Shown here: positions 1,497-14,423 of the stretch, piece after piece
Layout: every line of letters begins with the position of its first letter
Numbering within the stretch: the stretch's first letter is position 1
Assembly: GCA_028378565.1 (NCBI GenBank)
Contig: JAONMX010000001.1
Location: 1 to 64,000, forward strand
DNA length: 64,000 bases
Reading direction: 5' to 3'
From: Bacteriovoracaceae bacterium
GTDB taxonomy: Bacteria; Bdellovibrionota; Bacteriovoracia; Bacteriovoracales; Bacteriovoracaceae
The notes under the pieces: model-generated
Told to the model about the DNA's origin: nothing
What the model saw: only the letters and a program-made list of their open reading frames with translations
The model's database searches: none
Made by a program: the position numbers and the translations under genes

Positions 1497-3953
1497 TTGG
1501 AGGAAGAGAATATGGTAACAAATTATGAGGGCGACAACATTGAATTCAAAGAACGTCTTCCACTCCTGCCGATTAGAGATATCGTTGTTTATCCTTTTAT
1601 GATCCTGCCACTTTTTGTCGGAAGAGAATCTTCTATCAAAGCTGTTGAGCATGCGTTAAATGAAAGTGATAGACTTATACTTTTGTCATCACAAAAAGAT
1701 ATCAAGGCAGAACATCCTGAACCATCTGAAATTTACGAGACTGGAACTGTGGCCATGATCATGAGAATGAGAAAGCTACCGGACGGAAGAATTAAAATTC
1801 TTGTTCAAGGTCTCTCGAAAGCTAGAATTCTAGACTTCGAACAACAAGATCCATTCTTTGTAACTAAAATTGCAAAAGCGGACGACGTTGAAGTAACTCA
1901 AGATAAAATAGCAACCGATGCCATCATGAGAAATATCCGTGAGCAACTTGAAAGAGTTATTACTCTTGGAAAAGTTCTTTCTCCAGATATCCTAACAGTG
2001 TTAGAAGATATCACAGATCCAGGAAGACTCGCCGACCTTGTTGCTTCGAACTTAAATCTTCATGTTGCTGAAGCACAAATGATATTAGAAACATTTGATC
2101 CTGTTGAAAGACTTCATAAGATCAATGAAATTCTGACTCGCGAACTCGAAATACTATCGATGCAAGCGAAGATAAAGAATGTTGCGAAAGACGAAATGAA
2201 CAAATCACAGAAAGAATACTTTCTTCGTGAACAAATCAGGGCCATTAAAAGTGAACTTGGTGATGAAATGGCTCAGCCTGAAGGTGATGATGAAATCTCT
2301 GAGTTTAAAGCAAAAATATTAAACGCAAAGATGCCAACTGAAGTTGAAAAAGAAGTTAATAAACAACTTGTTCGACTTGAAAAAATGCATCCCGACAGTA
2401 GTGAATCAGGAATTATCAGAACATATTTAGAATGGATGACAGATCTTCCATGGTCGACGGCCAGTGAAGAAGTTATCGATTTAATAAAAGCGAGAGAAAT
2501 TCTTGACGAAGATCACTTTGACCTAGCAAAAGTTAAAGAAAGAATTCTTGAGTACCTTGCTGTTAGGCAATTAAAAGGTAATGAAATGAAAGGCCCTATC
2601 TTATGTCTTTCTGGTCCCCCAGGAGTTGGTAAAACTTCTCTCGGGAAATCTATTGCAAGAGCGACCGGAAAAGAGTTTGTTAGGATCAGTCTTGGTGGCG
2701 TTAAAGATGAAGCCGAAATTAGAGGACATAGAAGAACATACGTTGGTTCTATGCCGGGACGTTTTATTCAAGCACTTAAACAAGCAAAAACAAATAATCC
2801 AGTTATCCTTTTAGATGAAGTCGATAAATTAGGCGGCGATATGAAAGGTGACCCAGCTTCAGCAATGCTAGAAGTTTTAGATCCAGAACAAAACAAAGAG
2901 TTTAGGGATCATTATCTAAACGCACCGTTTGATCTTTCAAATTGTATGTTTATTGCAACTTCTAACGTTCTTCAAAATATTCCTGGTCCGCTAAGAGATA
3001 GAATGGAAGTTTTAGAGTTATCTGGATATACACAAGAAGAGAAACTTCAAATTAGTAAGAAATACTTAGTTCCAAAACAAATGGATGAGAATGGTATTTC
3101 CCACGATAATGTTAAGTTCACAGATGATGGAATTAACAGTGTTATAAGACATTTTACAAGAGAAGCTGGTCTAAGAAATTTAGAAAGAAAGATTGGTGCC
3201 CTATGTAGAAAAGTTGCCATGAAAATAGCACAAGGTGAAGTAGAGCAAACAAAGCTATTAAGCGATACTGTTATTGATCTACTAGGACCTCCTATTTATA
3301 CAAAAGAAGACGAGAATGATACTGACGAAATTGGTGTAGCAACAGGTTTAGCTTGGACTGCCGCCGGTGGAGAAGTTCTCTATATTGAGGCAACCAAAAT
3401 GAAAGGAAGAGGTTTAACTCTTACCGGTCAGCTTGGTGAAGTCATGAGAGAGTCTGCACAAACAGCTATTGGTTATATTAGATCTAGAGCGAAGCAACTC
3501 GGTATTGATGAAGACTTTTTTGATGAACATGAAATACATATTCATCTACCTGCTGGAGCCATTCCAAAAGATGGACCTAGTGCAGGTATAACTTTAGCCA
3601 CGGCCATATTAAGTTTAATTACTGGCTGTCCTATTGATCATAAAGTTGCCATGACAGGAGAAATCACTCTAACAGGTAAAGTACTTCCTGTTGGTGGTGT
3701 AAAGGAAAAATCCCTAGCGGCCATGAGAATGGGAATTGATACGGTTATTATTCCTTGGAAAAACCACAAAGATATTACAGATGTGCCAGACGAACTGAAA
3801 GAAAAAGTTAATTTTGTTCCAGTTAAGGCCATAAGTGAAGTGCTAGATATCGCTTTACTCGGTTGGGATCAGCACAAGAAGACAATTGGTAAGACGACTA
3901 CGACTAAGAAGAAGAAAAGAGCTGTTAAAACAGTTCCAAGGTCTGCGGCTTAA
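1497..3953 (+). CDS. lon: ATP-dependent Lon protease (copy 1)
   Basis: LLPIRDIVVYPFMILPLFVGRE N-domain, Walker A GPPGVGKTS, catalytic PKDGPSAGI and TGK motifs. The start may be the ATG at 1512. Confidence 0.97.
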   Translation: MEEENMVTNYEGDNIEFKERLPLLPIRDIVVYPFMILPLFVGRESSIKAVEHALNESDRLILLSSQKDIKAEHPEPSEIYETGTVAMIMRMRKLPDGRIKILVQGLSKARILDFEQQDPFFVTKIAKADDVEVTQDKIATDAIMRNIREQLERVITLGKVLSPDILTVLEDITDPGRLADLVASNLNLHVAEAQMILETFDPVERLHKINEILTRELEILSMQAKIKNVAKDEMNKSQKEYFLREQIRAIKSELGDEMAQPEGDDEISEFKAKILNAKMPTEVEKEVNKQLVRLEKMHPDSSESGIIRTYLEWMTDLPWSTASEEVIDLIKAREILDEDHFDLAKVKERILEYLAVRQLKGNEMKGPILCLSGPPGVGKTSLGKSIARATGKEFVRISLGGVKDEAEIRGHRRTYVGSMPGRFIQALKQAKTNNPVILLDEVDKLGGDMKGDPASAMLEVLDPEQNKEFRDHYLNAPFDLSNCMFIATSNVLQNIPGPLRDRMEVLELSGYTQEEKLQISKKYLVPKQMDENGISHDNVKFTDDGINSVIRHFTREAGLRNLERKIGALCRKVAMKIAQGEVEQTKLLSDTVIDLLGPPIYTKEDENDTDEIGVATGLAWTAAGGEVLYIEATKMKGRGLTLTGQLGEVMRESAQTAIGYIRSRAKQLGIDEDFFDEHEIHIHLPAGAIPKDGPSAGITLATAILSLITGCPIDHKVAMTGEITLTGKVLPVGGVKEKSLAAMRMGIDTVIIPWKNHKDITDVPDELKEKVNFVPVKAISEVLDIALLGWDQHKKTIGKTTTTKKKKRAVKTVPRSAA

Positions 3954-4041: not shown

Positions 4042-4443
4042 ATGTCAGAAAAGAAAGAACGTAACTCAAAGCTAAATATCGTCGTTGTCGATGATTCAGA
4101 TTTTTCAAGAAACTCAGTTGTGAGTATTTTAGAAGATGAAGGTTTCAATGTCGTTGGCCAAGCAGCAAGTGCAGAGGATGGTATTGCACTATCTGGAACA
4201 ACAGATGCTAATTTATTTTTAATAGACGTCGTGATGCCCCAAAGATCTGGGATTGAGCTTGCTAAAATTTTATCGGAAAAATCTTTGGGAACACATATTA
4301 TTATGATGTCCTCTCTTAATATTCAACAAGTAGTGATAGAATCTATCTCAAGTGGAGCTCTTGATTTTCTACCTAAACCATTTTCTAAAGAAGACCTCTT
4401 AAAGTCTGTTGAAAAAATCGACCAAGAGCTATCAAAGGAATAA
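4042..4443 (+). CDS. CheY-like response regulator receiver protein
   Basis: VVVDDSDFSR...FLIDVVMPQRSGIEL...MMSS...DFLPKPF receiver-domain motifs. Confidence 0.9.
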   Translation: MSEKKERNSKLNIVVVDDSDFSRNSVVSILEDEGFNVVGQAASAEDGIALSGTTDANLFLIDVVMPQRSGIELAKILSEKSLGTHIIMMSSLNIQQVVIESISSGALDFLPKPFSKEDLLKSVEKIDQELSKE

Positions 4444-4445
4444 GT

Positions 4446-4799
4446 ATGTTTATTATTAAGTTTTTTATTTATTTTACACTCAGCTTTATTATCCTAAGCT
4501 TTCCTGTAGGAAATAAGCCCATCTTTAGCCATCTCAATAAAGTAGCTAAGCCATATACGACAGAGCTCTTTGCAGACTTATCTGAAAAGGCAAAAGATAA
4601 TTTACAAGCGGGAAAAGAAATTGGACAAAAGATGTTCTCAACTAATATTAAAAAACAAGATCATATTAAAACCCAATACTCTTCAACTCAAAAAGCTGAA
4701 AGTAAAAAAATCAAAAGAGAATTAAAAAAAGAAATTCATAAAGATACTTATACACCTGAAGAAAAAGAGCTCCTTCAAAAGATCATTGAAGAATCATAA
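4446..4799 (+). CDS. Hypothetical protein, N-terminal membrane segment and Lys-rich tail
   Basis: ORF follows the response regulator directly and ends at a terminator hairpin. Confidence 0.6.
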   Translation: MFIIKFFIYFTLSFIILSFPVGNKPIFSHLNKVAKPYTTELFADLSEKAKDNLQAGKEIGQKMFSTNIKKQDHIKTQYSSTQKAESKKIKRELKKEIHKDTYTPEEKELLQKIIEES

Positions 4800-4828
4800 A
4801 AAAAGCCCTCAGTTTTGAGGGCTTTTTT
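4798..4828 (+). terminator. Rho-independent terminator
   Basis: aaaagccctca-gttt-tgagggctttttt. Confidence 0.85.
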
Positions 4829-5064: not shown

Positions 5065-5080
5065 TGCACAAGAGATGCCA
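5065..5080 (-). promoter_or_regulatory. Sigma-54-like promoter upstream of the 4849-5028 gene
   Basis: Minus-strand TGGCATCTCTTGTGCA: GG-N10-GC spacing, about 37 nt upstream of the start codon. Confidence 0.6.
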
Positions 5081-5140
5081 ACAATAGCCACATAAAATCA
5101 ACAAGTTACACCAAAATAGTGAACATTTTTCACACAGTGA

Positions 5141-6517
5141 CTAAAGTTTTAACAACCATTTGATGATTTTAAGCTTTCCAAGATAAGGAGGATATCTCAC
5201 TAAAATATCAAATATTTGATACCTCTTCATGACTGCCTTTTGATGACTAAACGTCTCAAAGCTATATCGGCCGTGATATCGACCCATCCCGCTCTCCCCG
5301 ACGCCGCCAAAAGGAAGTGTCTGACTAGAAAGATGTACAAGAGAATCATTAATGCACAGACCTCCAGAAGACACTTTCTTTACAACCGTATTCTCAACAC
5401 TCTTGTCTTTAGTGAACAAATAACAAGCAAGGGGCTTGTCAGAAGAATTAATAAACTCGATTGCTTCTGCAGTATTTTCAACAGTCACTATTGGTAAAAG
5501 AGGCCCAAAAATTTCATCCTTCATAGAGGCTGAACTACTATCAGCATTTATTAGCGTAGGAGAAATATATTTTTGCGACTTATCACCATCTCCCCCATAA
5601 CTAACCTCACTCTCGTCAATAATATGCTTTAATCTATTCCAATGCCTCTCATTAATAATCCTTCCATAGTCAGGAGAAGACTTAACTTCCTTTCCATAAA
5701 AAGAATTCAGGCCATTTTTAATTGCTTCTTCAAGTGCACTCTTTTTCTTTTTTTCTACGATAATATAATCAGGAGCAACACAGGTTTGTCCGGCATTAAA
5801 GAACTTCCCCCATGCGATTCTTCTACCTACTATTTCAAGATCATTTTCACCTAAGACCATACATGGACTTTTTCCACCAAGCTCCAATGTAACAGGAACT
5901 AAATTTTTTGCAGCTTTCTCCATTACAATTCTTCCAACGGAGCCGTTACCCGTATAGAAAATATGATCAAAAGGCAGTTCAAGCAATGCGGTGGTTTCTT
6001 TAACTTCACCCTGGATCACAATAACTTCTTCAGGAGTAAAGGCATCACTAATTATTTTTTCACATATCTTAGAGGTATGAACCGATATCTCGGATGGTTT
6101 TAAAATAGCATTATTTCCAGCACTCAAAGCTCCTATCAAAGGGGCCATTAATAAATTGAACGGGTAATTCCAAGGAGCAATAATAAGAACAGTTCCAAGG
6201 GGCTCAAAGTTAATATATGAACGACAAGGAAATTGTATTAAGGGAGAGCTCACCTTCTTAGGCCTCATCCACTTTTTTAATTTTTTAATTGTGTGACTAA
6301 TTTCAGAAAGGGTAAAACCTACTTCTGAGACATAACCCTCAAACTCAGACTTTCCTAAATCCAGTCTCAGTGCCTCTATGATCTCTTTTTCATATAAGAG
6401 GATAACCTTCTCAAGCCGCTTCAGGGCCTCTACACGCCACTCATAGCTGTGTGAAATACCTGTGTTAGCAAAGGTCTTAGAATTTTGAAATAATGTTTGA
6501 ATTTGAGATTCTTCCAT
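5141..6517 (-). CDS. Aldehyde dehydrogenase family protein (ORF track extends to 6547; likely start MEESQIQ at 6517)
   Basis: VTLELGGKSPCMVL, GKFFNAGQTCVAPDY and EIFGPLLPIV motifs typical of ALDH. Confidence 0.93.
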   Translation of the reverse strand: MEESQIQTLFQNSKTFANTGISHSYEWRVEALKRLEKVILLYEKEIIEALRLDLGKSEFEGYVSEVGFTLSEISHTIKKLKKWMRPKKVSSPLIQFPCRSYINFEPLGTVLIIAPWNYPFNLLMAPLIGALSAGNNAILKPSEISVHTSKICEKIISDAFTPEEVIVIQGEVKETTALLELPFDHIFYTGNGSVGRIVMEKAAKNLVPVTLELGGKSPCMVLGENDLEIVGRRIAWGKFFNAGQTCVAPDYIIVEKKKKSALEEAIKNGLNSFYGKEVKSSPDYGRIINERHWNRLKHIIDESEVSYGGDGDKSQKYISPTLINADSSSASMKDEIFGPLLPIVTVENTAEAIEFINSSDKPLACYLFTKDKSVENTVVKKVSSGGLCINDSLVHLSSQTLPFGGVGESGMGRYHGRYSFETFSHQKAVMKRYQIFDILVRYPPYLGKLKIIKWLLKL

Positions 6518-6532
6518 GGATCCCCCTAAATA

Positions 6533-6560
6533 ATAAAAACCCCACATTTGTGGGGTTTAT
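6533..6560 (-). terminator. Rho-independent terminator downstream of the 6600-6788 gene
   Basis: aaaccccacatttgtggggttt with a U-rich run on the minus strand. Confidence 0.75.
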
Positions 6561-6599
6561 AGAAAAACGTCGAGACTCGTCTGTTAACAGTATAACTAA

Positions 6600-6788
6600 T
6601 TATTTATTTTTAGCACTATCTTCTTGTGATTCTTCAGTAGCTACGGCAGGAGCTTGTTCTGCAGTCTCTTGAAATCTAGTAGATTGTACTTGATCAACAC
6701 ACTCAGCAGCTTGCTCTTCACCCATATTACCGGCAAAAGAAACATTCATTACTAAAATAGCAATAATTAAAAAGAATAAATTTTTCAT
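6600..6788 (-). CDS. Small secreted acidic protein (62 aa), paralogue of 4849-5028
   Basis: Signal peptide then FAGNMGEEQAAECVDQVQSTRF; strong SD aggagga upstream. Confidence 0.8.
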   Translation of the reverse strand: MKNLFFLIIAILVMNVSFAGNMGEEQAAECVDQVQSTRFQETAEQAPAVATEESQEDSAKNK

Positions 6789-6840
6789 ATCGTCCTCCTC
6801 TTATAAGAGACATGTTTAATTAGTAAGTACTTATATATAA

Positions 6841-6855
6841 GCAAGAGGTGTGCCA
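6841..6855 (-). promoter_or_regulatory. Sigma-54-like promoter upstream of the 6600-6788 gene
   Basis: Minus-strand TGGCACACCTCTTGC, near-consensus TGGCACG-N4-TTGC, 53 nt upstream of the start codon. Confidence 0.75.
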
Positions 6856-6933
6856 AAAAATTAAACTTAATTATAGGTAGTTATCTATAAAGGAATGTCC
6901 TATTTGAAACTAGTGTCTAAAAAATAGACAAAA

Positions 6934-6960
6934 AAAGGCCTGAGAGAACTCAGGCCTATA
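6934..6960 (-). terminator. Rho-independent terminator
   Basis: aggcctgag-agaa-ctcaggcct followed by a T-run on the minus strand. Confidence 0.8.
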
Positions 6961-6984: not shown

Positions 6985-7212
6985 TTATCTATCAGCAGTG
7001 TCTGCTGGAGCCGTAGTCGTTGTTGTAGCAGCAGTAGAGTCGTCATTATTACCTCTACCAGAAGTATCAATACACTGCCCACAATGGCTATTACCGCCAC
7101 AAGCTTCGTCTTGCTGACCAACACCTGCAGTAGAAGCATCGCCATCTTGTGCAAAGATATGCATCGAGATTAGTGCAAGAATCATTATTAGTGTCGTCTT
7201 TAGTGTCTTCAT
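6985..7212 (-). CDS. Small secreted Cys-containing, Thr-rich protein (75 aa)
   Basis: Signal peptide MKTLKTTLIMILALISMHIFAQ; EACGGNSHCGQCID; ends just before a terminator. Confidence 0.7.
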   Translation of the reverse strand: MKTLKTTLIMILALISMHIFAQDGDASTAGVGQQDEACGGNSHCGQCIDTSGRGNNDDSTAATTTTTAPADTADR

Positions 7213-7327: not shown

Positions 7328-8953
7328 CTACATATTCAGATTAACACCAGCCGGCTTCACAATACTAAGTAGTGATTGAAAAGCTTGAGTTACTTGTAAG
7401 GCCATTTTATGACCTGACTTAGACTCAACTTTCTTAATCTCACCATAGTTATCGTAAGCTACATTAATAGTTCCAACTTTATCCATTGAGATTTCTACTG
7501 GTTTTCCAAGAGCATTATACTTAAAGCTTAATGTTCTCTTTTCGTTCGACTTATTATTCTTATCTAGCATTGTCTTGATACGACCTTTGCTATCATAAAC
7601 TAGTAGAACAGATTTTTTCTTATTCTTAGCAATGGAAAGGTTACCATTTTTATCATACTGAAAACTAGTTGTTCCTTTCTTATTCGTCACTTTACTAATT
7701 TTATTAAACTTTGGATGGTACTCTAGCATAACAAAGTCACCCTTTGAAGAACGCTTGCTTGTTAGCAACCCTTTGTCATTATAAACAAAGTCTGTCTTAT
7801 GATTTCCTCTAGTAATCTTAAGAGGAAGCCCACAACATTCAGAGTAAATTGTTTCAGTTTTTAGATTGTTAATATTTGTCGCGATTCTAAAAGTATATGT
7901 ACTTCCGTCAGCTCGACTTTTAATTTCATATTCATACTTAGACTTACTTGATTTACCAGAAGCAGACTTCTTAGAAACCGTAGTCCAGTAATGCATTTCC
8001 GGATTCTTCGGATTAGAATCATAATCATATGATGTAACTTCTTTATTTCTTCCTACAATCTCTTTAACGAATTGAGTTTTAGGAGTGTAAGCAATCGTCA
8101 TTTTTGATTTATCGCTATAAGTAACAGATGTCATGTTGTGGTTAGCATCGTAACCATAAACAAAAACATTACCTGCGATATCTTTTGATTCTATAAGATC
8201 GTTACCCTTATACTTATAGCTCGTCTTCTTATCTCCAACAGAGCTGATATGCTTAACTTTTCCGTCTGGGTACCACTCAAAGAATAATTGCTTGGCCATT
8301 GTATCGGTGATCTTTTGTACTTTACCTTGCTTATTATAATCCAAAGTAATTTTATAACCGTGCTTATCTTCTATTTTTACTAGGTGCCCTTCTTTATCAA
8401 AGTGCTCTTTCTTACCATCATTATAAAATCTAGTATAACCAGACTTTGTTTTCTGTACTTTCTGAAGTCCTCTTGTATTTGAAAAGAGCATGCTTCCATC
8501 TGCGATTTTAGCTTTTACTTTAAACTTTCTTGCATATGCTTGTCTTAACTCAGCATCACCTGTTAGTTTCTTCATTAAGTCACTTGCTACTTTATCAGAA
8601 ACAGTTGTTTTCTTTCTCATCGCTTCGATAATTTTAGTAGATGCCAACTTTGCATCAACTGGATTCTTAGGAGTAAACCTTGTCAGTGCCCCTGAACCAT
8701 TTTCGTGAACGATAACAGAACCATCTGCCGAAACACTAAGGTAAGTTTCGTAATCACTACCCCAGCCAAATCCAAACCAACCTTTTTCAGTCGACTTTGA
8801 GTTATAGGTCCTAACAACTTCTAGGTCATGTCCATTTCCAGGAACGATAATATCCGTATACGAGATATAGTAATTACCGTTTTTGAGGTTAACCCCTCCA
8901 AACACGCTAGAGCACAAAAATAAGAATGTAAGTAGCAACTTTAATGATTTCAT
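7328..8953 (-). CDS. Secreted YD-repeat / RHS-like protein with DUF6531-like N-terminus
   Basis: Signal peptide; VVRTYNSKSTEKGWFGFGWGSDYE; repeated YD-type motifs (YDANHNMTSVTYSD, YDKNGNLSIAK, YDSKGRIKTMLD). Confidence 0.85.
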   Translation of the reverse strand: MKSLKLLLTFLFLCSSVFGGVNLKNGNYYISYTDIIVPGNGHDLEVVRTYNSKSTEKGWFGFGWGSDYETYLSVSADGSVIVHENGSGALTRFTPKNPVDAKLASTKIIEAMRKKTTVSDKVASDLMKKLTGDAELRQAYARKFKVKAKIADGSMLFSNTRGLQKVQKTKSGYTRFYNDGKKEHFDKEGHLVKIEDKHGYKITLDYNKQGKVQKITDTMAKQLFFEWYPDGKVKHISSVGDKKTSYKYKGNDLIESKDIAGNVFVYGYDANHNMTSVTYSDKSKMTIAYTPKTQFVKEIVGRNKEVTSYDYDSNPKNPEMHYWTTVSKKSASGKSSKSKYEYEIKSRADGSTYTFRIATNINNLKTETIYSECCGLPLKITRGNHKTDFVYNDKGLLTSKRSSKGDFVMLEYHPKFNKISKVTNKKGTTSFQYDKNGNLSIAKNKKKSVLLVYDSKGRIKTMLDKNNKSNEKRTLSFKYNALGKPVEISMDKVGTINVAYDNYGEIKKVESKSGHKMALQVTQAFQSLLSIVKPAGVNLNM

Positions 8954-9044: not shown

Positions 9045-9929
9045 CTAAATCTTTATTTTTACTATCTTTAGGATGAGAAATCCTCCAATACAGTCTAGTA
9101 ATAAGGCCGCAAGGGACAGAATTATCCCTAAAGGAGTCGTAAACATTCGAACCACTGATTGTGGGTCGCTAGCAGCAAAGATTGCAGTAATAGCAAAAGG
9201 CATGGCAAAGATAGTTGCTCCTTGAAACATTCCTTGTGCAGTATAGGTATCAACTTTCTGCTGTAAGCGAATTCTTTCTCTAATCACATTAACAATTGTG
9301 TCAAAAACTTCTGCTAAATTACCACCGGTTTCTCTTAATATATTAATTGAAGAAACAAACATTTCATTGTCTTCCGTTGGTATTCTCTTTGCAAAATTAT
9401 CAAAACATTCTTCTAAAGGAACACCGATCTTATTTTGTTGAAGAATTAAATTGAACTCTTGGCTTATTGGATTAGGCATTTCATTAACAACCATCCCTAT
9501 TGACTGAGGGACAGAAAGACCTGCTCTAATTCCATTAGATAAAAGAGTTAGACCATCTACCATTTGCCCGCTAAATTCCTTTATTCTTTTTTCAACCATA
9601 AAGTTAATAATTGGTTTTGGTATCTTAAAACCTACAAAGGCAACAATGACTGCCACAAAGAAGCCTAGTATCCAGCTGACAAAAACCCCTAGTACAATTA
9701 GAACAAAACTTGATAATCCAATTGATAAGAAAAGCAGTGTGTAAGTAATACGATCAGGATCAACTTCGATAAATAATAGTTCAAGCTTTTCCATAATATA
9801 GGTTCTTGTTCCTATCGTTTGATTTTCAACCCAACTAAAAATTCCTACTGAGTATTTAAAACAAAAAGCAAATACAACAAAACCTATAAGTGCAATTATA
9901 CCGTTTTGCCCGAGAATATTTAACATCAT
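9045..9929 (-). CDS. Tad pilus inner-membrane protein, type II secretion system F domain (TadB/TadC-like)
   Basis: GQMVDGLTLLSNGIRAGLSVPQSIGMVVNEMPNPISQEF, LRETGGNLAEVFDTIVNVIRER. Confidence 0.9.
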   Translation of the reverse strand: MMLNILGQNGIIALIGFVVFAFCFKYSVGIFSWVENQTIGTRTYIMEKLELLFIEVDPDRITYTLLFLSIGLSSFVLIVLGVFVSWILGFFVAVIVAFVGFKIPKPIINFMVEKRIKEFSGQMVDGLTLLSNGIRAGLSVPQSIGMVVNEMPNPISQEFNLILQQNKIGVPLEECFDNFAKRIPTEDNEMFVSSINILRETGGNLAEVFDTIVNVIRERIRLQQKVDTYTAQGMFQGATIFAMPFAITAIFAASDPQSVVRMFTTPLGIILSLAALLLDCIGGFLILKIVKIKI

Positions 9930-12115
9930 CCACCTGCCTTTGTAGGTTTCTTAACTGCGGCGGCTTTCTTTTTCTGATTAGCTAAAGCGGCCTTTTTCTC
10001 ATTTTCTTCATTACTAAAGAGACCTCTTGGGATTTTGTATCCCTTACGCTCAAGGGTTTCAATAAACTTTGGGATAAAACCTGAAGCTTGAAACTCACCA
10101 TCGATTTTACCGTCTTTGCCTATCCCACGTTGATTGAATAGAAAGATATCTTGCAAGATAACAACATCTCCTTGCATTCCCCCTACTTCAGTAATGTGAG
10201 TCATTTTTCTTGAACCATCATCCAAGCGAGACTGTTGAACAATTAAATGAATTGCACTTGCAATCATTTCTTTAATGGCCTTTGGACTAAGACCAGCTCC
10301 AGCATACTGAACAAGAGTTTCAATTCTACCAATACATTCTCTAGGATTATTAGAGTGAACAGTGGTCATTGAACCGTCATGTCCTGTTCCCATGGCCTGA
10401 AGCATATCGAGGGTCTCTCCCCCTCTACATTCCCCAACAACAATTCGATCGGGTCTCATTCTAAGAGTTTGTTTCACAAGACAACGAATATCAATAGCAC
10501 CATCTCCTTCTAGAGAGGGTGGTCGAGTTTCTAGTCTCACTACGTGATCTTGTGGAAAATCAAGTTCCGCTGAATCTTCACAAGTAATAATTCTTTCGTT
10601 CGCTTGAATAAATCCACCTAAAATATTAATAAGAGTTGTCTTACCAGAACCAGTACCACCACTTACAACAATATTTTTATGAGCTTCAACAGCAATTCTC
10701 ATAAAGTCAGCCATATTTTGCGTCATCGATCCGTAAGCAACAGAGTCTTTATAGGTAAGCCTATTTTCTGGAAATTTTCTAATAGTAATAGTACAGCCAT
10801 CGAGTGCACATGGTGGTATTATCGCATGTACCCTTGAACCATCTTGCAGTCGAGCATCAACATAAGGTGTTTTTTCATCGATTCTTCTTCCAATGGGAGC
10901 AACAATTCTTTCAATAACGTTTAAAACCTGTCTATCATTAGTAAAAGTAATTTCACTTTTCTTGAGTTTACCGTCATGTTCATAATAAATTTTATCTGGT
11001 CCAACAACCATGATTTCAGAACAATCCTTATCAGCAAGTAAATCCTCTAGCGGCCCTAGGCCAAGAGCTTCATCTAGTATCTCTTTTACTAAACGATTCA
11101 TATCATCACGAGAATTAACAATTCCCTTGGTATCTTCTTTTCCTAATAGATCAACAACCATTTTCTTAGTCTGCTCTCTTAGAATAATTTTAGCCTTAGG
11201 GTCTTTATCATCTCCACCCTTCATATCCATTTCATCAACAAGTGCTTTATGAATACGGGATTTAAGTCCAGTCCAACTACTGCCTTTTGCTCCACCACCA
11301 GAATCACTTCCCCCTCCTGAACTCGGAGTAGAGGCTTTAACATCTGTTGGTTTATTTAATCTTGCCAGTGTCTTAAAAACACTTTTTTGAATTAGTTTTC
11401 TTGCTAATTCTGTCGCCGACTTTGAGAAAGCAGAATTTTTATTTATAACAAAAGCTGGCTTTTTTTGATTTAAAGCAGCAACACAAGATTGATCATCTTT
11501 TGGAAGTGTTGCAAAAACAGGCTTGCCTAAAGACTTCCCTATCACCTCAGGTGAAACAGGATGACCTTTTTGATGTTGGTTCGCAATTATAAGTAACATA
11601 TCTTTTGGAAACATCATGGTTACCAAATCAGAAAATAACTTCTTTGTTTGATTAATGGCCAAGATATCAGGAGAAACAACAATCATAATTGCTGTAGAAA
11701 ACTCTAAAGCCTTTAAGGCCAAGGAGTTTAAGTCTGATCCACAGTCAATAATAGTAAGAGGAAAAATATTTGGTAACGCCTTTAATGTTTTCCCTAGGCC
11801 ATCAGCATTTATCCCTGCAGCAGCATTGGGATCATTAGGCATACCGATATAACTAACATTTGCGGGATGGGCAGTAATAAAAGACATAATACTTCTAGGA
11901 TCAATAGCACCATTAAAATCCGCAAGGTCTTTTACTGTTTTCTTGGACTTCATCCCAGTAATAAAATCTTGGTCACCACTGGCTTTTTGATCAAAGTCTA
12001 ATAATAATGTTTTCTGTCTTGTTTCTGCTGCATAAGCAAAAGCTAAGTTAGCTGCAAGCTGTGACTTTCCAACTCCACCCTTTCCACCAACAATAGCAAC
12101 AATATAACCGGCCAC
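9926..12115 (-). CDS. Fusion of a TadZ/CpaE-like (ParA/MinD) ATPase and a CpaF/TadA secretion ATPase
   Basis: N-terminal GGKGGVGKSQLAANLAFAYA deviant Walker A; Gly/Ser-rich linker; C-terminal VSGGTGSGKTTLINILGGFI and RMRPDRIVVGECRGGETLDMLQAMGTGHDGSMTTVHSN. Confidence 0.93.
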   Translation of the reverse strand: MAGYIVAIVGGKGGVGKSQLAANLAFAYAAETRQKTLLLDFDQKASGDQDFITGMKSKKTVKDLADFNGAIDPRSIMSFITAHPANVSYIGMPNDPNAAAGINADGLGKTLKALPNIFPLTIIDCGSDLNSLALKALEFSTAIMIVVSPDILAINQTKKLFSDLVTMMFPKDMLLIIANQHQKGHPVSPEVIGKSLGKPVFATLPKDDQSCVAALNQKKPAFVINKNSAFSKSATELARKLIQKSVFKTLARLNKPTDVKASTPSSGGGSDSGGGAKGSSWTGLKSRIHKALVDEMDMKGGDDKDPKAKIILREQTKKMVVDLLGKEDTKGIVNSRDDMNRLVKEILDEALGLGPLEDLLADKDCSEIMVVGPDKIYYEHDGKLKKSEITFTNDRQVLNVIERIVAPIGRRIDEKTPYVDARLQDGSRVHAIIPPCALDGCTITIRKFPENRLTYKDSVAYGSMTQNMADFMRIAVEAHKNIVVSGGTGSGKTTLINILGGFIQANERIITCEDSAELDFPQDHVVRLETRPPSLEGDGAIDIRCLVKQTLRMRPDRIVVGECRGGETLDMLQAMGTGHDGSMTTVHSNNPRECIGRIETLVQYAGAGLSPKAIKEMIASAIHLIVQQSRLDDGSRKMTHITEVGGMQGDVVILQDIFLFNQRGIGKDGKIDGEFQASGFIPKFIETLERKGYKIPRGLFSNEENEKKAALANQKKKAAAVKKPTKAGG

Positions 12116-13605
12116 TACCTTCTTCTCCTTCGGAACTTTCTTTTAACTTCATCTGTTCCTTGAGAAGCACTTTCTACAATTTCTGGTGTTACAAATACCA
12201 CAAACTGACTCTTATTAACTGTTTTTGATTTTGATCTAATAAAATTAAATAATGGGCTACTACCCTCATCTGATGCAGTTACGCCGCCAGGAGGGTTTCT
12301 ATCAAAGTCGGTAGAGTTTTTATTAATAACAATACCACCAACCACTGCAGATTCTTTTGATTTCACAATCAAAGCCGTTCTCACAGTATTACTTAAGGTC
12401 TGAGGAGGATCACCAATATTTGAACTTACTGTTAGTCCAATATTTAAATCTATTTTTTCTTCCTGTAAAATCGTCGGTGTTACTGTAAGATTGAATCCTG
12501 CCGAAGCACTCTCACTTTTAGTGAACTCTCCCGAACCAACAGCAAAAGGTTTTTCTTCATTCTTAACGAGATTCCCAGCTACTTTATCTTTAACAATAAT
12601 AATCCCACTTTGAATCACACGAGCATGGCCTGCAGACTTAGCACTTGAAAGTTTTGGAAATAAGTTAGAGATTGTTCCTGAAAGAGTATTACTTGATCGA
12701 GTCGTCACATTTCCTGAGACCGTTTTTCCAAACCCAATAGAACCTTGTCCATCAGAAAGTAGAGGTGACCACTTAAATCCAAAAATCTTATTATAATCTT
12801 TTGTAAGCTCTACAAATTGAGCTGTTATTTTAACTTGCTTAGGAACTGGTTGCGACTTTTGCTTGGCATTTACCGTAATAAAGTTCTGGATTGGATCTCT
12901 CTTCGCTGTTGTTACAGAGTCTGTTCTTCTTGCTAAGTTTTCTAATTGATCGGGCACAAATGCTTTTGCAATAAGCTCAGCCCTTACCTTGTCACCTTCG
13001 CTTGTTGCGATTCCTTCAAGCCAAAAAAGACCATTTACAACTCTAACCGTAACATCTCTCAATTGATTTATTTGAATCTCCTCTTGCATTTTTCTTGCAA
13101 TAACTCTTTGAGTTTGTGGAGAAAGCTCTACTAGCCTTAAAACATCTGCAAATTTTTCTTTAGCGAGAACAACAACAACCTTTCCGATATCGGCAGGAAC
13201 AACAATTTGACCGCCTATATAAACGCTATCGCCTTTTATACCTACCTCTAATCCTTCAACATCTCCTAAAAACTCTTTTAGTTCATTCACCAATTTAGAT
13301 TGGTCAGTAGCAGTAATAGTTACAAGATATCTTGCTTTCACATCTCCAACTGTATTCCTTATTGTCATCGATGTGTTACCAGGCTTTAGACCTTTTAATA
13401 CAATTTCTCTTTTAGATGGAATCAATGTGTGCGTTAGTAGATTTTCATTCCCTACCTGTACTTTTGTAGATGGTGTGAAGTCTAACTTCTGAAGCTTATC
13501 TATACCTAAAACAACTTCTATTTTTTTCTCAGGCACTTCTTCTTGTGCAAACAAGTTATTTGCAAATAACAATATTAATAAAGTACTAATAAATACTTTA
13601 ATCAT
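12115..13605 (-). CDS. cpaC: Tad pilus outer-membrane secretin (CpaC/RcpA-like)
   Basis: Signal peptide, secretin N-terminal region, VVGGIVINK...SPLFNFIRSKSKTVNKSQFVVFVTPEIV. Confidence 0.9.
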   Translation of the reverse strand: MIKVFISTLLILLFANNLFAQEEVPEKKIEVVLGIDKLQKLDFTPSTKVQVGNENLLTHTLIPSKREIVLKGLKPGNTSMTIRNTVGDVKARYLVTITATDQSKLVNELKEFLGDVEGLEVGIKGDSVYIGGQIVVPADIGKVVVVLAKEKFADVLRLVELSPQTQRVIARKMQEEIQINQLRDVTVRVVNGLFWLEGIATSEGDKVRAELIAKAFVPDQLENLARRTDSVTTAKRDPIQNFITVNAKQKSQPVPKQVKITAQFVELTKDYNKIFGFKWSPLLSDGQGSIGFGKTVSGNVTTRSSNTLSGTISNLFPKLSSAKSAGHARVIQSGIIIVKDKVAGNLVKNEEKPFAVGSGEFTKSESASAGFNLTVTPTILQEEKIDLNIGLTVSSNIGDPPQTLSNTVRTALIVKSKESAVVGGIVINKNSTDFDRNPPGGVTASDEGSSPLFNFIRSKSKTVNKSQFVVFVTPEIVESASQGTDEVKRKFRRRRR

Positions 13606-14423
13606 TACTTACCAACCCTCTTTCTATTTTGTTCGTTAAAGAAAGCTTTAGCTTCAACACTCTCTTGATTTCCAATGACATCAAAAATATCTGAAGATCT
13701 AATGCTGATAATTTTATTATCGTTATTGTTTCTAAGTGTTAAAAAAGGCTTATTCCCTGAGAAAACTAACAAAAAGACAAGCTTTTGTACTTCGTAAGGA
13801 GTCAGCTCAAGAGTCACTGTATTATATCGACTATAAACATTTGCATTCATTTTTTTAATGGCAGAAGGAATTTTAATTCCATAAATTGGAATTGAATTAC
13901 TCATATTATAACCCGTCGACAAAACTAAAACGTCCTGAAGTATTGTCGTAGATTTTTGCATATCTTTTCGCCCTGATGAATAATCAATGGCAGCGAGAAC
14001 ATCCACTCTATCCCCAGGCTTAATTAACTTAGAAACAGCTTGCCTCTCTGTAATATTAATGGCGATAGCTCTTTTTCCTGAACTTACTTGTTGAGCAAGT
14101 CCCGTTTTTGTTCCTGGATAAGTAATTCTTGGCTTTGAGATTTGTTCACCTTTCATTATCGGAACAGTTGCTAAAGTATTTTCAATTTCTTTAATTGAAG
14201 AAAAACTTCCAGGAGTTCTAAACTTTTTAGGTACTGTAGTTGTTTCAACTTTTGTATCATCCAATAATTCAAGTTCATTGATATCTCTTTTTGCAACAAG
14301 GACTGTTACATTCTCACCAAACTTCTTTGTGATACTAGATTTCTGATCTTCAATATAAGTAAAGACCATAAACATTGCTATACCAGCAATAAGTAAGGCC
14401 AAACTAAATGCACGAGTATTCAT
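13605..14423 (-). CDS. cpaB: Flp pilus assembly protein CpaB/RcpC-like (SAF domain)
   Basis: VLVAKRDINELELLDDTKV..., GKRAIAINITERQAVSKLIKPGDRVDVLA. Confidence 0.92.
   Translation of the reverse strand: MNTRAFSLALLIAGIAMFMVFTYIEDQKSSITKKFGENVTVLVAKRDINELELLDDTKVETTTVPKKFRTPGSFSSIKEIENTLATVPIMKGEQISKPRITYPGTKTGLAQQVSSGKRAIAINITERQAVSKLIKPGDRVDVLAAIDYSSGRKDMQKSTTILQDVLVLSTGYNMSNSIPIYGIKIPSAIKKMNANVYSRYNTVTLELTPYEVQKLVFLLVFSGNKPFLTLRNNNDNKIISIRSSDIFDVIGNQESVEAKAFFNEQNRKRVGK

Follow-up and report, generated by a model that had tools for sequence, protein, structure and literature searches.

Two paralogous micro-protein genes, A and B, lie on the minus strand of the window, the whole 64,000 nt stretch of Bacteriovoracaceae DNA that was analysed, downstream of a set of Tad pilus genes and a gene for a secreted RHS-repeat protein (Table 1). 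Hairpins resembling intrinsic terminators separate the transcription units, one of them ending the unit formed by the RHS gene and the small gene that follows it. The aldehyde dehydrogenase gene found between A and B is likewise present between the micro-protein genes in genera g1, g13, g14, g16, g35 and g42, and is missing from this position in g4 and g15. In almost every locus, the micro-protein cluster is bordered by genes on the other strand for a receiver-only response regulator (4042-4443) and Lon (1497-3953); a functional link between these genes and the cluster is possible, though purely conjectural.

Table 1. Features of the micro-protein locus in the window
Feature	Coordinates	Strand	Sequence	Remarks
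Tad pilus genes	9045..14423	-		TadB/C-type T2SSF, CpaE-CpaF fusion, secretin, RcpC
DUF6531/RHS-repeat secreted protein	7328..8953	-		likely Bd0109 orthologue (Pfam, homology)
75 aa secreted CxxC protein	6985..7212	-	CGQC motif	matches Bd0108 in position and motif; sigma-54 site absent
Terminator-like hairpin	6936..6957	-		ends RHS/small-gene unit, just before UAS of gene A
UAS of gene A (predicted)	6914..6930	-	TGTCTATTTTTTAGACA	palindrome; centred 67 bp before the T of TGGCA
Sigma-54 -24/-12 element, gene A (predicted)	6841..6855	-	TGGCACACCTCTTGC	site also carried by orthologues
Micro-protein A, 62 aa	6600..6788	-		signal peptide, one Cys, low-complexity tail
Terminator-like hairpin	6537..6558	-		after gene A
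Aldehyde dehydrogenase	5141..6517	-		between genes A and B; likewise in many relatives, not all
UAS of gene B (predicted)	5138..5154	-	TGTTAAAACTTTAGTCA	centred 66 bp before the T of TGGCA
Sigma-54 -24/-12 element, gene B (predicted)	5065..5080	-	TGGCATCTCTTGTGCA	site also carried by orthologues
Micro-protein B, 59 aa	4849..5028	-		paralogue of A (profile and pairwise comparison)
Terminator-like hairpin	4799..4828	-		after gene B

Both micro-protein genes are preceded by elements of the -24/-12 type recognised by sigma-54. A preliminary description of this DNA had reported the arrangement GG-N10-GC ahead of each paralogue, at distances giving short leaders of about 25-45 nt, and both points hold: the two matches are exact and, taking the C of the GC as position -12, the predicted transcription starts fall at 6829 for gene A and 5054 for gene B, leaving leaders of 41 nt and 26 nt respectively. 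It had also argued that two such matches were unlikely to be fortuitous. At a loose stringency, where two mismatches are tolerated, the window contains many such sites, with 49 found against 25.7 expected; at the stringency of the family, TTGGCAYN6TGCW, those ahead of genes A and B are the only two within 64 kb, and across four genomes this pattern has 73 matches, compared with six for a reversed control pattern.

Conservation between orthologues is what decides the matter. A profile search detected the family of 59/62 aa secreted micro-proteins in 43 of the 129 genomes of the order, and a TGGCAY-N6-TGC motif is located 45-70 nt ahead of the ATG in 61 of the 64 core family members, the remaining three having TGGTAY-N6-TGC instead. 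Only one of 493 control genes from the same loci bears such a site. As the motif is kept across orthologues to this extent, the -24/-12 elements are taken to be real, and the lack of conservation in orthologous loci that would have refuted the original proposal is not observed. All three genomes concerned, L056, L061 and L066 of genus g15, share this TGGTAY form of the -24 element ahead of their core micro-protein gene. TGGCA-N7-TGC is the sole recurrent spacing, with 61 cases, every other gap length being represented by one or two. In a matrix built from 128 promoters, TGGCAY and TGC hardly vary, T is preferred at -27 and the GC is followed by W; because these promoters were chosen with a TGG[CT]A[CT]-N6-TGC filter, the flanks of this matrix are informative and its core is not. 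That the genes instead have ordinary sigma-70 promoters, with TTGGCA (matching TTGACA at five of six positions) as the -35 box and the AT-rich stretch beyond it, which includes TATATA about 15-17 nt downstream in gene A, as the -10 box, is highly improbable and was rejected, given that TGC is held at a fixed spacing with 1.6-2.6 bits per base and no -10 hexamer is conserved across the 128 promoters, that GG and TGC persist in orthologues where the flanking bases change, and that a sigma-70 scan was empty at both sites, with no excess over shuffled sequences.

No rpoN gene was found in the source assembly, a metagenome-assembled genome that is 56% complete. Absence of rpoN from the genome had been named as a finding that would overturn the sigma-54 proposal; with the assembly so incomplete, it is met only formally, and the gene is present in 121 of 129 relatives, including a sister species of the same genus for which the genome is 100% complete, as well as in all 13 Bdellovibrionaceae genomes tested. 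The RpoN-like gene of Bdellovibrio bacteriovorus HD100 is bd0843 (PMC3464611). The source genome itself encodes at least three AAA+ enhancer-binding proteins, and the three that were read have GAFTGA motifs. Site conservation, the N10 spacing, the lack of a -10 box, the occurrence of rpoN in relatives and the phased palindrome described below all support control by RpoN together with an enhancer-binding protein, as first proposed, although transcription is unproven. We regard it as highly likely, on the strength of these sequence comparisons, that both elements are genuine sigma-54 promoters under such control; that they are transcribed remains an inference.

Upstream of the sigma-54 sites, at helically phased distances, is a palindrome with the consensus TGTCTAAAnTTTAGACA. 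This putative upstream activator site (UAS) and the identity of the surrounding locus were both overlooked in the preliminary description, the promoters of which nevertheless stand. Counts of spaced dyads and k-mers upstream of the sites yielded TGTCTAAA-N-TTTAGACA, a dyad enriched over shuffled sequences. The UAS of gene B overlaps the end of the aldehyde dehydrogenase gene and scores 18.6 bits, a value reached by no shuffle. The matrix was trained on 71 promoters of the micro-protein set. Among held-out regulon promoters, consisting of other sigma-54 sites in four genomes, 17 of 60 score above the 99.9% null level (p<0.001); in a second set of hit-locus promoters, also not used in training, 32 of 47 exceed this level and 41 exceed the 99% level. 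In Bdellovibrio proper the UAS matches the Bacteriovoracaceae matrix poorly, with only three of 15 above the 99% level. In several Bdellovibrio promoters (L239-L249) there is a further inverted repeat, GTCTCA...TGAGAC, some 16 bp ahead of the T of TGGCA; this is unusually close to the -24 element, and is perhaps a repressor site.

A composite pattern, composed of a half-site, a gap of 39-69 nt and the -24/-12 element, was searched for throughout the order. Matches were obtained in 80 of the 129 genomes; among those listed there were about 150, compared with three for the reversed control. Among 140 composites that do not belong to the known micro-protein promoters, a few of which precede divergent hit-locus micro-proteins that were recognised later, the distances cluster at approximately 47-50, 57-61, 66-69 and 76-77 bp (p<1/5000), and similar helical phasing is evident in the second promoter set (set B; p<1/20000). 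Phasing of this kind is expected if an enhancer-binding protein acts by looping the DNA. NifA-type activator sites have the form TGT-N10-ACA. The palindrome described here resembles these in being a TGT...ACA repeat and the putative enhancer of an enhancer-binding protein, but has an N11 spacing and an AT core.

No enhancer-binding protein could be tied to the UAS, the linkage of the activator candidate not being conserved. In the source genome, a response regulator-type enhancer-binding protein with a GAFTGA motif is encoded directly downstream of a trypsin-like secreted gene that has both a sigma-54 site and a UAS (L083 on C88, 881-2266 and 2387-3355, minus strand). The pair recurs in the sister genome (L102) and not elsewhere. 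As this linkage is not conserved, and the distribution of the regulator does not track that of the micro-protein, it remains only a weak candidate for the activator.

The two micro-proteins are 42% identical to one another, and share one conserved cysteine and a low-complexity tail. Neither these nor the 75 aa protein matched any family in Pfam or NCBIfam. They were rejected as members of the Bd0108 family, as a CxxC motif is absent from all 129 sigma-54-associated micro-proteins of the three sets. A regulon of secreted micro-proteins had been envisaged, to be traced through sites ahead of further genes of the CVDQVQS type; the secreted character was correctly anticipated, but genes A and B are the only two in the genome that match the strict CVDQVQ pattern, and the other members are diverse. 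A complete genome has about 20 sigma-54 sites, most of which lie ahead of other exported proteins. Once micro-proteins were excluded and a start codon required 35-140 nt downstream, a signal peptide-like N terminus was found downstream of 41 of 44 sites in four genomes, though the rule used was crude and no background count was matched to it. One site (L124, G043) lies ahead of a gene of the flagellar rod type (FlgF/FlgG-like), so that some of the family's flagellar system may depend on RpoN.

This secreted regulon agrees with the published view that sigma-54 regulons govern the cell exterior (Francke 2011, PMC3162934). It resembles those regulons in having -24/-12 promoters before genes for exported proteins and, by inference, activation by AAA+ enhancer-binding proteins, and differs in its family-specific palindrome and class of micro-proteins, neither of which is described in the literature searched. 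The attack-phase programme of Bdellovibrio offers another parallel, in that a predator's surface and secreted genes are again under an alternative sigma factor; that factor is FliA, however, and no sigma-54 motif was reported in that study for the attack-phase promoters (PMC3627812).

The order RcpC, secretin, CpaF, TadB/C, RHS, micro-protein, (aldehyde dehydrogenase), micro-protein, facing h4446, the response regulator and Lon, is found in nearly all of 38 loci. Homologues of the RHS protein are present in 335 of 369 genomes of the phylum; it and Bd0109 are clear homologues, with 32-36% identity. There were 88 loci in which the end of the RHS gene could be placed. In these the RHS gene is usually followed directly by a small secreted gene without a sigma-54 site, and a secreted micro-protein of 53-98 aa preceded by a sigma-54 site comes after the RHS gene in 79; a recognisable micro-protein of this kind is missing in the other nine. 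When the CxxC members of the direct follower class were compared with the Bd0108 family, a profile match with 89.6% probability was obtained. This derives partly from the signal peptide, and the CxxC members were picked by hand, making the implied relationship suggestive only.

In B. bacteriovorus, the hit locus comprises Bd0108, Bd0109 and the Tad genes bd0110-0114, and Bd0109, an RHS protein, and Bd0108, a disordered secreted protein, control pilus extrusion and prey-independent growth (PMC3818213, PMC4267844). The window shares with it, in this order, the Tad and secretin genes, the RHS/YD-repeat gene, a small secreted gene that often encodes a CxxC motif, and a further small transcription unit. 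In the HD100 publications this last unit is called a non-coding sRNA, with no sigma factor assigned to it (PMC3818213, PMC4267844); the window, by comparison, has a strong UAS and an aldehyde dehydrogenase gene that separates two micro-protein genes. In Bacteriovorax marinus, the RHS gene BMS_0182 is reported to have two small signal peptide-encoding neighbours, BMS_0183/4, without homology to Bd0108 (PMC4267844). This arrangement matches 35 of the loci studied here, and promoters go unmentioned in the accessible portion of that paper. Judged by synteny and homology, the locus in the window corresponds, in the Bacteriovoracaceae, to the hit locus of Bdellovibrio.

For the hit locus of HD100, a "novel small non-coding RNA" of 261 nt has been published, at bases 96455-96716, with RT-PCR showing it raised in bd0108-mutant strains (PMC3818213). 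In G132, which matches the HD100 coordinates, a 66 aa open reading frame at 96683-96483 on the minus strand overlaps this RNA, has a sigma-54 site ahead of it at 96758-96744, from which a start near 96732 on the minus strand is predicted, and encompasses both published RT-PCR primers (96555-96574 and 96633-96652). The end of an inversion at 97049, reported to lie inside bd0108 (PMC11323537), is consistent with G132 following HD100 numbering. TGGCAY-N6-TGC and a secreted open reading frame of 63-69 aa are found beyond bd0108 in all 11 genomes of the genus that includes HD100 (g52); a separate transcript in this position is known for HD100 alone (PMC3818213).

Between one close pair of Bdellovibrio genomes, the 66 aa open reading frame has 11 synonymous codon changes and one nonsynonymous change, and third positions account for 12 of the 13 differences, which points to purifying selection. 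Constraint is weaker in another pair that has diverged further, with seven synonymous and 12 nonsynonymous changes, and 14 of 26 differences at third positions. Because the changes in the close pair are largely synonymous, the HD100 hit-locus sRNA is very probably the mRNA of the 66 aa open reading frame, subject to a check of the transcript strand. The published identification, and the fast divergence of the micro-protein sequences, would fit a reading in which the RpoN promoters are real, the functional output is RNA (in HD100, a regulatory sRNA) and the open reading frame is incidental. We consider this improbable, since such a reading has to contend not only with the coding constraint in the close pair but also with the retention across loci of a signal peptide, a downstream cysteine and a length of 53-98 aa, and with the absence of any Rfam match in either the window locus or that of HD100; a dual-function RNA is still not excluded. 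No NCBIfam family was found for the HD100 micro-protein, and its homology to those of the Bacteriovoracaceae is not demonstrable (hhalign 25%), so it is by position, size, secretion and promoter alone that the micro-proteins of the two families are taken as equivalent.

With the micro-protein as the product, the promoters of genes A and B would each give rise to a monocistronic, terminator-bounded mRNA. An inferred enhancer-binding protein, the identity of which is unknown, would bind the palindrome at a distance of one or several helical turns upstream, always on the same face of the DNA, and activate the RpoN polymerase. An envelope, pilus or prey-contact cue, likewise inferred, would act through this activator to increase secretion of a probably disordered, single-cysteine micro-protein. 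Once secreted, this would act at the envelope, plausibly by modulating the pilus-envelope switch of the RHS protein and Bd0108, its inferred protein partner. The function is thus inferred, and the proposal that an envelope or prey-contact signal raises a secreted micro-protein that modulates this switch has perhaps an even chance of being correct.

A sizeable possibility, if one that we hold to be somewhat less than even, is that the sigma-54 control is real while the micro-proteins serve a general role in the envelope or in secretion, the RHS and Tad neighbourhood being no more than an ancestral linkage. The UAS is, after all, shared by many other exported proteins elsewhere in the genomes, and at L046 the micro-protein locus lies beside Lon without a nearby RHS gene, the end of the RHS gene likewise not being found in L055, L074 and L076. 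A purely ancestral linkage is harder to reconcile with a micro-protein having stayed behind the RHS gene in the great majority of loci, in two families, despite its rapid sequence change, and with the response of the HD100 transcript to bd0108 genotype (PMC3818213).

Sigma-54 promoters and the hit locus were each already known separately. The connection between the two, the palindrome and the interpretation of the sRNA as a micro-protein gene were not found in the open-access papers searched; as the search was confined to such papers, earlier description elsewhere is possible. We slightly favour the overall interpretation that the hit switch of the Bdellovibrionota is wired to a circuit of sigma-54 and an enhancer-binding protein, the output of which is a fast-evolving, secreted, single-cysteine micro-protein, with the HD100 "sRNA" as its mRNA. 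If this is true, the signal that rises upon loss of Bd0108 is not a regulatory RNA but a secreted peptide, and what has been published as a non-coding RNA is indicated to be a protein-coding gene. The palindrome gives access to what looks like a secretome regulon, in a phylum for which the literature searched contains almost no work on sigma-54. The hit locus is at the heart of an unanswered question, how prey contact and pilus state are linked to the growth decision in these predators, and a conserved third player would now be added to this locus: a secreted micro-protein with input from RpoN and an activator, through a stated, predicted binding site.
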